The notes under the pieces are model-generated. The model was not told where the DNA came from and did not search any database. It saw nothing but the letters and a program-made list of their open reading frames with translations. From IMG/VR virus record IMGVR_UViG_3300021792_000015, positions 1 through 24,932 of that record: DNA of 24,932 nt; one strand, 5' to 3'. Position 1 is the stretch's first letter. Each line of letters begins with the position of its first letter. Shown here piece after piece: positions 1 to 16,988 of the stretch. Made by a program: the position numbers and the translations under genes. This DNA comes from a virus.

Positions 1-150
1 CCACTTGTTGCACTTCCACTAGTTGAACCTGTTGCTGTACTTCCACTAGTTGCACCTGTTGCTGTACTTCCACTAGTTGAACCTGTTGCTGTACTTCCAC
101 TAGTTGAACCTGTTGCCGATGGTGCTGAACCACTAGTTGCACTTCCACTA
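1..150. repeat. 27-bp coding tandem repeat
   Basis: About four to five imperfect copies of a 27-bp unit (three 9-mers: acttccact, agttgaacc, tgttgctgt) lie in the minus-strand gene and encode the nine-residue GSTSGSTAT repeat. Copies differ by single bases and the block continues beyond the left edge. Repeat number is probably variable between isolates. Confidence 0.85.
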
Positions 151-3457: not shown

Positions 3458-4276
3458 TTAAAAACTAAAGAATTTTTCCGCATCTCGTTGTTTGGATATT
3501 ATCGAACCATATCCCAATGCATCAAAGAAATCCTGTAATTTGCCCTCTAATTCATGTTCAAACAATCGGTCTCTATCTGCATACTGTTCCAAGAAATCTA
3601 ATATTTCCGGTGGGTCTAAATATCCGGTGAATGCCAATGAGTCAATCCCAATTGGATTAGTTTTCAAATATACCCACTTTATTTTATCTCCACCCTTTAC
3701 CGGCATATATCTGTATGGTACTTTCAAAAATTGTAACAAATCATTATACCTAATTGCCGCCTTTACGTGTGCCGGTGTACCACCCATTACATGGAATAAT
3801 TCTCTATCGCCCATCATGTACTTATTCAAATCCTTTACGGCCGTGTTCTTTGATACATCAACCAATGGTAGTGAATAAATGTTTTTCTTGAAATCCATTA
3901 CATAATCACTAATCTCACGTTCGGTTTTATCATCCAAAATGTCAATTAACACTTGTTTCATTACCTTTTGAAATGCCGTTGGGAATGATGAACGTTTTAC
4001 ATCCAACCCTTTAACATCAAGTTTATTCACAGCAACACCGTTATCCGATAAAATCCACTGTGCATATCGTTTTTTAGCAACCCAAAAACCGGATTTAGCA
4101 ACGTACTCCTTTTTAATCTCAAATCTATGACTACCTCGAATGTTAAAAAATCTTACAGCCATCACATCATAGAACGAGTTTAAATAATCTTGACTTTCTT
4201 GTGCAATCTCGTTTACAATATCAACCAACTCCGTTTCCGTTTTCTCGGTTCTCCAATTAGGATATCGAACATCCAT
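3458..4276 (-). CDS. 43: DNA polymerase family B, C-terminal fragment (out of frame with its own motif C)
   Basis: Palm/thumb part of a T4 gp43-like replicative polymerase. Recognisable sections are the KKRY motif region (GFWVAKKRYAQWI near residue 67), KGLDVKRSSFP, GTPAHVKAAIRYND, the thumb, and a hydrophobic C-terminal tail (DAEKFFSF) like the clamp-binding tail of RB69/T4 polymerase. The first ATG is at 4276, but homology continues upstream: in this same frame 4277-4306 reads DSVFFSATPI, the second half of the catalytic YIDTDSVFF motif. The first half (NIYIDT) lies just upstream in another frame, separated by five bases TGACA. A protein starting at 4276 would lack catalytic motif C entirely. 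So either recoding joins the frames, or the gene is broken, or the sequence has an assembly error here. Confidence 0.85.
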   Translation of the reverse strand: MDVRYPNWRTEKTETELVDIVNEIAQESQDYLNSFYDVMAVRFFNIRGSHRFEIKKEYVAKSGFWVAKKRYAQWILSDNGVAVNKLDVKGLDVKRSSFPTAFQKVMKQVLIDILDDKTEREISDYVMDFKKNIYSLPLVDVSKNTAVKDLNKYMMGDRELFHVMGGTPAHVKAAIRYNDLLQFLKVPYRYMPVKGGDKIKWVYLKTNPIGIDSLAFTGYLDPPEILDFLEQYADRDRLFEHELEGKLQDFFDALGYGSIISKQRDAEKFFSF

Positions 4277-4308
4277 TATTGGAGTTGCACTGAAAAAGAC
4301 TGAGTCTG

Positions 4309-4380
4309 TCAGGTGTCGATGTAGATATTGGAATCGTACTTACGATCACCACCTACATCGACAATTTTTTTGATTTTCAT
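4309..4380 (-). CDS. 43: Motif-C connector ORF of the split polymerase (23 codons)
   Basis: An ATG ORF beginning MKIKKIVDVGG and continuing DRKYDSNIYIDT before TGA. The second part is clearly polymerase extein: RKYDSNIYIDT is what should follow NKRYVQIIGG of the N-terminal fragment and precede DSVFFSATPI of the C-terminal fragment. The first residues (MKIKKIVDV) resemble the start of a split-intein C-half (compare M-LKKI or MIKI starts). It is in frame with the N-terminal polymerase ORF, after two in-frame TAA stops, and needs a +5 (net -1) shift to enter the C-terminal frame. Confidence 0.5.
   Translation of the reverse strand: MKIKKIVDVGGDRKYDSNIYIDT
4314..4363. repeat. Nested inverted repeats around polymerase motif C
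   Basis: A perfect 11-bp inverted repeat (TGTCGATGTAG at 4314-4324, its complement at 4353-4363) encloses a second one (ATCGT at 4333-4337 and ACGAT at 4342-4346, loop of 4). A smaller pair (GACT/AGTC) lies at 4298-4306. The outer arm at 4314-4324 is the coding sequence for YIDT; the other arm encodes the intein-like IVDV. Confidence 0.85.
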
Positions 4381-4398
4381 ATTAATAATTTATTTAAT

Positions 4399-6165
4399 TT
4401 ATATAAGGTCGTCTCCCTCTTGTAATTCATTTCCGATTATATTCATCTGAACCCCATTTCGGATTACCATGACTGGTTGATTTGGAAATATCTCACGGTA
4501 TGTTCCATCTTCCATTTCCACCTTTACAGGAGAACCTCCGATAATCTGAACATATCTTTTATTCAACATATCTGCCGTTGATTTGATAACTACTTGTCCA
4601 ACCGCTGTAATTGCACCTGCATTATCCAAATCGTATAAACGGAAAGATTTTAATCCAAGAACTCCATAAAATGAATTTAATAACACTTTCTGAATTTTCT
4701 GTCGTTGGTTGTAGAAATTATACTGTGATTCATCCCCGGCATCAGCGAACTCTTTTGCCTTCTTCCTAAATTCCACACGTTTATCGAACCACTCACTCAA
4801 TATTTCAGGAATAATACCAACTTTATTTTGAGAATAAATAACTCCATTGGATGCTATTGCGTAATTCTCTTCTTCCAACATCTTCTTTAGGTTTTGATTT
4901 GAAATCTCACCACCACTCCGTACTTTCCAATTTTTATCCACGGCTTTAACATAATCCAAATAATCCCAATCCTCAATCAAATCAACCTTGGTTTCAGGAG
5001 AAATGTTTAATGACATAATAATACTAGGATATAGTGATGTTAAGTCCAAATCATAAATCCACTCATATTTTCCTACAATTGGTGATTTTACATAAGCCCC
5101 CGTAAATCCGACTTTACCATTAGAGTTTTCATCATTTTTAGGTTTCTTTTTCTTCTTCTTACTAGGTGCAATCAAATTCTTTCTACGTAAGTGTGTCAAC
5201 ATCGCCCCCTCTAGGTAGATAGATGAAAATTTCCAATCATCATACCCAATGTGACCTATGTGACAAGTACCTCGTGCTAATGAAATCAACTGTAATTTAA
5301 TATCTAAATCAACTACTAACTCAACATCAACCAAGTTATATTCGATGAATTTCTTTATATCTGTTCTGAATAAATCATCCAAATTTCCGTCATACTCAAT
5401 TTTACCTCTTCCCAATTCTTTGGTTGCTACCGTATCCAATCTGTAATTTGGTAGTTCTCCAAATGTGAACTTTTTATAAAGTAAAATATAATCCATCGAA
5501 GCAATACCAGCGATTTGATAAGTTTCATCCCGCTCTTTGTAGTTTACAATACCGATAGGTGATAATGAACTTGCATAATCTTTACCGAATAAATTAACCA
5601 ATCTATTGTAAAGATAAGGTATATCGAAAAAATCTATATTCCAACCCGTTACAATATCAATCCCCAAACGTTGCCACTCATCCACGAAATAACGTAACAT
5701 ATCCTTTTCGTTAATGAATGGTATCACTGTGGTTTTGTTATGTTGGGTAACTTCCATAGTTCCCTCTTTATCCAAAACTAAAACTACATAATCACCTTGT
5801 TTTGTTGTATGATAACCGATTGCGGTAATTTCATTTTCCGATACTTTGGTGTCCGGTAATCCAGTCTCCATTTCAACCTCAATGTCAAATGTGAAAATAT
5901 TTAAATCTCCACCTGGCAAATCGCTATCAGGATACATATCAATTAATGTTCGTGTAATTGGTGGTACATCCTTTTCAAATAAGGTTTCATCATTTCTATC
6001 AAAATTAGCTACCTTTGTGTACCTATCACCGTAAATTGATAAAATCTCACCGTTTTGACTTGGTTCGTATGCATAATCCGAATATGGAAATGACATATAT
6101 CCCCGTACATCATCCCATAAGTGGATTTTATTACTTCTCCGGTCGTAATATGTGTTTGTGTACAT
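4399..6165 (-). CDS. 43: DNA polymerase family B, N-terminal fragment with intein-like tail
   Basis: Exonuclease, palm and fingers of a gp43-like replicative polymerase, 588 residues. The 3'-5' proofreading site is intact: Exo I FDIEVE (D94, E96), Exo II NIDFFD (N176, D181), Exo III YNLVD (Y276, D280). Polymerase motif A is DLTSLYPSII (D374) and motif B is QKVLLNSFYG (K493, N497). After NKRYVQIIGG (residue 544) the homology stops. The last 44 residues (SPVKVEMEDG... to GNELQEGDDLI) do not fit a polymerase but resemble the block-B end of an N-terminal split intein (ED G, PNQPV in place of TPNHPV, ELQEGD). Block A with its catalytic Cys/Ser is not visible. A Lys-rich insert (SKKKKKKPK, 335-343) lies just before the palm. 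A promoter with boxes at 6192-6223 drives it. Confidence 0.9.
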   Translation of the reverse strand: MYTNTYYDRRSNKIHLWDDVRGYMSFPYSDYAYEPSQNGEILSIYGDRYTKVANFDRNDETLFEKDVPPITRTLIDMYPDSDLPGGDLNIFTFDIEVEMETGLPDTKVSENEITAIGYHTTKQGDYVVLVLDKEGTMEVTQHNKTTVIPFINEKDMLRYFVDEWQRLGIDIVTGWNIDFFDIPYLYNRLVNLFGKDYASSLSPIGIVNYKERDETYQIAGIASMDYILLYKKFTFGELPNYRLDTVATKELGRGKIEYDGNLDDLFRTDIKKFIEYNLVDVELVVDLDIKLQLISLARGTCHIGHIGYDDWKFSSIYLEGAMLTHLRRKNLIAPSKKKKKKPKNDENSNGKVGFTGAYVKSPIVGKYEWIYDLDLTSLYPSIIMSLNISPETKVDLIEDWDYLDYVKAVDKNWKVRSGGEISNQNLKKMLEEENYAIASNGVIYSQNKVGIIPEILSEWFDKRVEFRKKAKEFADAGDESQYNFYNQRQKIQKVLLNSFYGVLGLKSFRLYDLDNAGAITAVGQVVIKSTADMLNKRYVQIIGGSPVKVEMEDGTYREIFPNQPVMVIRNGVQMNIIGNELQEGDDLI

Positions 6166-16076: not shown

Positions 16077-16922
16077 TTAGTTAAATAATTCATCAAATGC
16101 CGCCCCAACGTTACTTGTTGGTTCCGGTGTACTTGTTTGAGTTGGTTGTGGTACACTCTGTACGGTTTTTTGTGGATTTGATGGTTGTGGTGGTGTTTCA
16201 ACAACTGCTTTTGGTGCTGATGCCACATTTTGTGGTGAACTCGATTTATATTGAGTTCCCGCCTCATCTTCCGGTGTCAACCACTTCTCTAATTCTGCCT
16301 TCAAATCTTCGTAACTCAATTCTGTATATAAATCAGTAATGTTTACTTGATTATCAATAAGTTTTTGAGCATCTGCCAAATTTGGTAGTAATGGAGTTTG
16401 AGCCGGTTTTACACGAATATTTGTTGTTGGATATTGAGTTCCACCCTCGGCCGCCGTTACATACTCTACCGTGATATCTCTACCATTTTCAATATCAGCA
16501 ATATCACCGTAATCTGGGTCTGCGATATATCCTAACAAATCAGTGTAAACGGTTTTTCCAAATCCCCAAAATTTTACTCCCTCGTTTTCTTTACCTCTAA
16601 CAATAACAGGTACGTAAGTTCTTAATTTTGGTTCAAATCCTTTTCCGGTTTTCCAATCTTCTTTATCTCCCGTTGATTTCAATTTATCAGCAAACTCTTG
16701 AATTGGGTCAGGTCTACCAAATGATAATGGTGAAATTAAAGTTTTGTTGTTAATTCCATAGTGGAAAAGTAACTCGATGAATGGATTTGATTCATCATAC
16801 TTGTAAGGTACGATTCTAACTTGTTGTTTTCCAGGTGATGGTTTCCAAAACAAATCAGATTTCTTTTGAGTGTTTTGTAACTTGTTTAATCTTCCGCGAA
16901 TTGCATCTAAATCTAATGCCAT
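16077..16922 (-). CDS. 32: Single-stranded DNA-binding protein, T4 gp32-like
   Basis: It coats ssDNA at the replication fork and in recombination. It is 281 residues against 301 for T4 gp32. The N-terminus is helical and basic (MALDLDAIRGRLNKLQNTQKK), followed by SDLFWKPSPGKQQVRIVPYKY, the family's FWKP----VRI-P start of the core, a central OB-fold region with RTYVPVIVRGKENEGVKFW and YIADPDYGDI, and a long Pro/Gln/Thr/Ser linker ending in a short acidic/hydrophobic tip (FDELFN). The zinc Cys/His set of gp32 is not evident. The start is preceded immediately by a seven-base repeat array that I read as an autogenous operator. Confidence 0.88.
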   Translation of the reverse strand: MALDLDAIRGRLNKLQNTQKKSDLFWKPSPGKQQVRIVPYKYDESNPFIELLFHYGINNKTLISPLSFGRPDPIQEFADKLKSTGDKEDWKTGKGFEPKLRTYVPVIVRGKENEGVKFWGFGKTVYTDLLGYIADPDYGDIADIENGRDITVEYVTAAEGGTQYPTTNIRVKPAQTPLLPNLADAQKLIDNQVNITDLYTELSYEDLKAELEKWLTPEDEAGTQYKSSSPQNVASAPKAVVETPPQPSNPQKTVQSVPQPTQTSTPEPTSNVGAAFDELFN

Positions 16923-16932
16923 AATTTTTAGT

Positions 16933-16974
16933 GTTTAAAGTTTAATGTTTAATGTTTAAAGTTTAGCGTTTAAC
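16933..16974 (-). promoter_or_regulatory. Seven-base repeat array before the SSB start codon (putative autogenous operator)
   Basis: Six contiguous heptads on the minus strand (GTTAAAC, GCTAAAC, TTTAAAC, ATTAAAC, ATTAAAC, TTTAAAC) plus a degenerate seventh (ACTAAAA) lead to within three bases of the SSB ATG. All share xxTAAAC. T4 gp32 represses its own translation by binding cooperatively to an A/U-rich unstructured leader, and its site size is about seven nucleotides, equal to this period. Confidence 0.7.
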
Positions 16975-16988
16975 GTGTACTACACACG
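16974..16988 (-). repeat. Hairpin upstream of the heptad array
   Basis: CGTGT and ACACG pair on the minus strand around a 5-nt loop GTAGT, ending exactly where the heptads begin. In T4 gene 32 a structured element (pseudoknot) lies 5' of the unstructured operator and nucleates binding; this hairpin sits in the same place. Confidence 0.55.

Follow-up and report, generated by a model that had tools for sequence, protein, structure and literature searches.

The leader of a gp32-type single-strand DNA-binding protein (SSB) gene in the uncultured virus IMGVR_UViG_3300021792_000015 carries a run of seven-base repeats that starts at a hairpin and ends three bases before the start codon. The seven-base period is conserved in relatives, is specific to the SSB leader within related contigs and equals the site size of T4 gp32. 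We consider it probable that the array is an autogenous translational operator of the SSB, phased so that one protomer would occupy each heptad. The window, by which we mean the whole stretch of DNA analysed, comprises 24,932 bases of this virus record. Inspection of its minus strand confirmed the arrangement described in an earlier note on this DNA, namely six heptads of the form xxTAAAC and a degenerate seventh right before the SSB ATG. The order is CGTGTGTAGTACACG (16988-16974), the six heptads, ACTAAAA, ATT and ATG, and the repeats occupy 16926-16974, between the hairpin and the ATG at 16922. The features are as follows.

16974..16988, minus strand: leader hairpin CGTGTG(TAG)TACACG, the presumed nucleation element (stems covary in the nearest clade; other clades also have a hairpin at this place).
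16933..16974, minus strand: six contiguous heptads, 5' to 3' GTTAAAC GCTAAAC TTTAAAC ATTAAAC ATTAAAC TTTAAAC (sequence; Tandem Repeats Finder; lag-7 score; period kept in relatives).
16926..16932, minus strand: degenerate seventh heptad ACTAAAA (sequence).
16923..16925, minus strand: ATT, separating the array from the ATG (sequence).
16077..16922, minus strand: gene for a gp32-family single-strand DNA-binding protein of 281 aa with no cysteines (PF08804, PHROG SSB families, AlphaFold model, translation).

The first heptad, GTTAAAC, and the 3' arm of the hairpin have one G in common; if that G is left out of the heptad, TTAAAC follows CGTGTGTAGTACACG. Tandem Repeats Finder detected the array with a period of 7 and 5.9 copies. 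The identity of the leader with itself at lag 7 was 0.80, compared with 0.375 ± 0.07 in dinucleotide-preserving shuffles (z = 6.0). When the whole 24.9-kb window was scanned, the array gave the top lag-7 score (0.86, the next being 0.66), and the three-heptad pattern showed no second occurrence in the 24,932-base virus record.

The identification of the gene as a gp32-family SSB held up in each comparison. The protein matches PF08804 with E 1.2e-12 (48.8 bits, against a curated cut-off of 26.8), the PHROG SSB families and, in a profile search, T4 gp32 chains. The sole strong PDB matches of its AlphaFold model were the cores of RB69 and T4 gp32 (E 1.4e-9 and 5.3e-9, respectively), and the predicted structure is that of the gp32 core. 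The zinc site of T4 gp32, which consists of three cysteines and a histidine, is absent, because the translation contains no cysteine; this site is a feature of T4 gp32, and the PF08804 match is independent of it. Downstream of the SSB gene lie a UvsX-like recombinase, then a 5'-3' exonuclease and a DnaB-like helicase. The Far-T4 phages (PMC4360716), which are likewise uncultured and have T4-like replication genes, are a plausible neighbourhood for this virus; the paper describing them does not mention gp32 or its leader. In the closest cultured relatives, Flavobacterium phage immuto and Microcystis phage Mel-JY01, the same SSB family stands beside a RecA-like recombinase, but neither SSB leader has a significant 7-base period.

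To follow the period beyond the window, we collected SSB relatives from viral contigs by means of five different query proteins, together with those of cultured phages. Dereplication at 85% protein identity left 100 leaders, 95 of which did not come from cultured records, and the best lag of each leader was picked among lags 3-15. None of the counts draws on an alignment in which one row, L211, was miscut. Conservation of the seven-base period in relatives had been named in advance as the point on which the operator reading could fail, and the period proved to be conserved. Lag 7 was the best lag in 54 of the 95 non-redundant SSB leaders, and lag 14 in a further 12. The lag-7 signal reached p<0.01 in 50 of these 95, compared with 0 of 142 non-redundant leaders of other genes on the same contigs, although the leaders are related, so that the counts are not independent events and dereplication answers this only in part. 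Among the 142 control leaders, no lag stands out. The array lies on the sense strand, directly before the SSB start, in the window and in the relatives alike. As the identity limit was lowered through 85, 75, 70, 65 and 60%, lag 7 remained best in 50/92, 22/39, 15/24, 10/14 and 9/10 leaders, in a series that excludes the window itself and the leaders retrieved through the heptad pattern. The result at less than 60% identity (9 of 10) is therefore not dependent on close relatives. In about a third of the SSB family, several of the window's near relatives among them, no clear period is seen. When a strong period was mapped as a label on the protein tree, the label was clustered, yet changed many times, which suggests that the period was repeatedly gained, lost or blurred.

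The specificity of the seven-base period for the SSB leader was borne out within related contigs by the control leaders and by whole-locus scans. The lag-7 maximum of the whole locus falls in the SSB leader for 69 of 97 loci. At other lags, the maximum fell there in 3, 5 and 2 of the same 97 loci (lags 5, 6 and 9) and in 21, 15 and 14 (lags 8, 10 and 11). A strict four-unit pattern gave 15 matches in 10 of 13 related contigs (about 400 kb in total), and the contig coordinates place all 15 directly upstream of an SSB start. On the other hand, TAAACNN arrays also precede unrelated genes in other viral contigs, which counts against the operator reading. Four TAAAC units with period 7 occurred in at least 119 stretches of viral contigs, with 4 SSB genes among the 80 fetched; period 8 gave 82 stretches, with 1 SSB gene among 80 fetched, and period 6 gave 108 stretches, with 0 SSB genes among 80 fetched. 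These spacing controls indicate that TAAAC arrays in general are not peculiar to SSB genes, and the claim of specificity rests on the leaders within related contigs. We also observed a heptad leader on genes other than SSB: a strongly conserved attaaagtagattatac TAAACTATAAACCATAAACAATAAAC sequence lies some 40-46 bases upstream of small genes, most of whose products start with a KFLYF-like motif (L087, L088, L093, L094, L100, L101, L102, L114, L116, L139, L145, L149, L150, L158 and L159). The products of these KFLYF-type genes gave no convincing Pfam or PHROG match.

Across the relatives' SSB leaders, the heptad period is kept while the unit and the flanks drift; the earlier note had anticipated drifting flanks. 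The unit may be TTAAACA, TAAACGA, CTAAAAA, AAAACTT, AATTACN or GTTATCA at the same period, and in most clades the periodicity is carried most strongly by C and T. Relatives share the period rather than the sequence of the unit. The units are distributed as follows.

Window and L026: TTAAAC-type heptads.
Marine clade: TAAATAA/TAAACGA.
L265: CTAAAAA.
L389: ATAAAAC.
L393: TAAATAC/TGAATAC.
L544: AAAACTT.
L481: AATTACN.
L465-L470: GTTATCA.

The hairpin at the 5' end of the array is present and covaries, with a small correction to the arms first given (CGTGT/ACACG): the best stem has 6 bp, CGUGUG/UACACG, with the loop UAG. In the nearest clade, which provides nine distinct stems in 14 leaders, the stem arms pair with their own partner and not with the partners of other leaders (P=0.0005). 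Across clades, differing self-complementary stems occur at roughly the same position in the leader, and in 31 of 95 leaders the hairpin is better than in shuffles (p<0.05). Thus, the hairpin is conserved as a structure. The loop may take part in a further pairing. In the window, UAGU, from the hairpin loop, could pair with GCUA of the second heptad (16964-16967), and in relatives the candidate second stems between the loop and the stretch 3' of the hairpin are AGGT/ACCT, AAGG/CCTT and ACAG/CTGT. Covariation of these stems gave P=0.016 for stems chosen by hand, whereas a pooled automated pseudoknot test was not significant. The complementarity suggests that the second stem might form an H-type pseudoknot, as in T4. 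The leader matches no Rfam family at threshold. In many relatives, an A/T-rich box like TATATTTA or TATATATTATA lies about 10-25 bases 5' of the hairpin. This box may be a promoter, in which case the mRNA would begin with the hairpin.

The closest known system is the operator of T4 gene 32. There, gp32 nucleates at a 5' pseudoknot and then spreads across an unstructured stretch with UUAAA/UAAA repeats, and in this way represses its own translation (PMC535899, PMC3014915). The T4 operator and its RB69 counterpart resemble the window leader in serving a gp32-family SSB and in having a structured 5' element, and in T4, as in the window, unstructured A/U-rich TTAAA-type repeats reach the start codon (PMC535899, PMC3014915). 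The window leader as a whole is no more structured than its shuffles. The two differ in three respects: the T4 UUAAA repeats are spaced at 5, a spacing not known to be required in T4, and the window repeats at 7; the pseudoknot is proven in T4 and only suggested here; and T4 gp32 has the zinc site that the window SSB lacks. The value of 7 nt used in the earlier note as the T4 gp32 site size agrees with the literature: a cooperatively bound monomer covers 7 nt, independent of the sequence of the ssDNA (PMC7826291; also PMC10484735).

The same note's description of the array as a purer form of the T4 operator did not survive comparison with other gp32 leaders. The leader period is 5 in T4, 5 in KVP40, 4 in the RB49-like phage LQ5 and 9 in cyanophage P-SSM4. 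Some of these KVP40, RB49-like and cyanophage leaders resemble the window in having short-period repeats before the start, but none has a 7-base period. In the gp32 leader of Prochlorococcus phage P-SSM4 (L303), the 9-base period is formed by AATACTCAC AATACATTC AATACGGAG AATACGATT, and at 957-985 of L609 five AAGTAAAC octamers (period 8) precede a cyanophage-type gp32 gene (MSFAELKK). A 7-base period as a general rule of T4-type leaders is thus ruled out; because the periods differ, a period of 7 bases is a property of the present SSB clade, and leader periods may differ among gp32 subfamilies. It also follows, from the 5-base operator of T4 and the periods of 4, 5 or 9 elsewhere, that a 7-nt footprint need not mean a 7-nt operator. 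The lack of Shine-Dalgarno starts, which the note had linked to the mode of repression, is ruled out as the cause of the array, as marine-clade leaders have Shine-Dalgarno (GGAG) sites and also the strictest heptads.

Given the 7-nt site of T4 gp32 and its autogenous repression, the simplest reading of the array is the same mechanism with an operator at the protein's own footprint. By analogy with T4, we infer that the SSB binds its leader with one protomer per heptad and represses its own synthesis. Repression would be triggered when SSB is in excess of the available single-stranded DNA. A first protomer would nucleate at the leader hairpin, and others would follow cooperatively along the A/U-rich, unstructured leader, each taking one heptad, until they covered the start region and kept ribosomes off. 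With a 7-base period, successive protomers would all meet identical bases in a single register, and this shared register would set the SSB mRNA apart from other single-stranded nucleic acid. How gp32 picks out its own message among single-stranded nucleic acids has been called unclear (PMC535899), and searches of the open-access literature yielded no account of a 7-nt-phased operator of the gp32 type. A broader reading, to which we give about an even chance, is that a large uncultured clade of T4-related phages keeps its SSB leader at the 7-nt footprint, with specificity coming not from a fixed motif but from phase repeated along the cooperative lattice, and with SSB and unit drifting together clade by clade. 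An SSB without sequence specificity on DNA would then find its own mRNA by a base pattern whose repeat is precisely as long as its 7-nt site. How gp32 recognises its own mRNA becomes directly testable with such a family of natural leaders, which have little in common apart from a 7-base period matching the gp32 footprint. Furthermore, the leader period could serve to read out SSB site size from sequence in uncultured phages, because periods of 4, 5, 7, 8 and 9 appear in different gp32 subfamilies.

The array could instead be read by another protein. In that case, a repeat-reading RNA-binding protein, either from the phage (for example, a RegA-like repressor) or from the host, would bind the heptads and control SSB synthesis. 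RB69 RegA selects UAA triplets in vitro, according to work cited in PMC3014915, and UAA is present in most units. However, RegA acts on many mRNAs, whereas related contigs carry the array in the SSB leader only, and a unit that varies by clade at constant period better fits a low-specificity lattice binder than a reader of motifs, which makes this alternative unlikely. We consider it similarly improbable that the repeats are a DNA-level element, that is, operator iterons, or promoter or origin repeats, recognised as duplex DNA and without function in the mRNA. Tandem repeats near a start are often DNA binding sites, and the A/T-rich TATATTTA-like boxes just upstream in many relatives imply that a promoter is near; against this, a 7-bp period is off the helical repeat, the orientation of the array is constant, and its position, abutting the start codon and following a covarying hairpin, points to RNA.

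A third alternative would have the leader act as an A-rich, unstructured enhancer of translation whose heptads arose from replication slippage only. It fits a leader that is A/U rich and weakly structured, as well as the TAAACNN arrays that other viral contigs carry shortly before the starts of other genes. Slippage would not, however, fix one period across clades with different units, and the period appears in none of the 142 other leaders on the same contigs; we regard this explanation as quite doubtful, and chance or slippage as such is ruled out by the same control and by unit drift at constant period. Finally, a stop-codon fence, in which successive TAA heptads would stop all three frames before the SSB start since 7 equals 1 modulo 3, is very improbable and can be dismissed: L393, L404 and L408 do have an in-phase TGA in place of TAA, but any period not divisible by 3 would serve, and in-phase stops are absent from the GTTATCA clade (L465-L470) and the AATTACN leader (L481), both of which retain the period.

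Two further observations concern other parts of the window. The family B DNA polymerase is split over 3458-6165 on the minus strand. Its first ORF (4399-6165) encodes the exonuclease and the N-terminal part of the palm; the tail of this ORF is intein-like, although it gave no Pfam hit; a short ORF at 4309-4389 ends in IYIDT, and the frame ending at 3458 holds the C-terminal part of the polymerase, from around DSVFF. The polymerase gene thus seems to be fractured, with a split intein interrupting it at the YxDTDS motif, where the frame changes. At the edge of the window (5-116), Tandem Repeats Finder identified four copies of a 27-base tandem repeat, TTGCTGTACTTCCACTAGTTGAACCTG.
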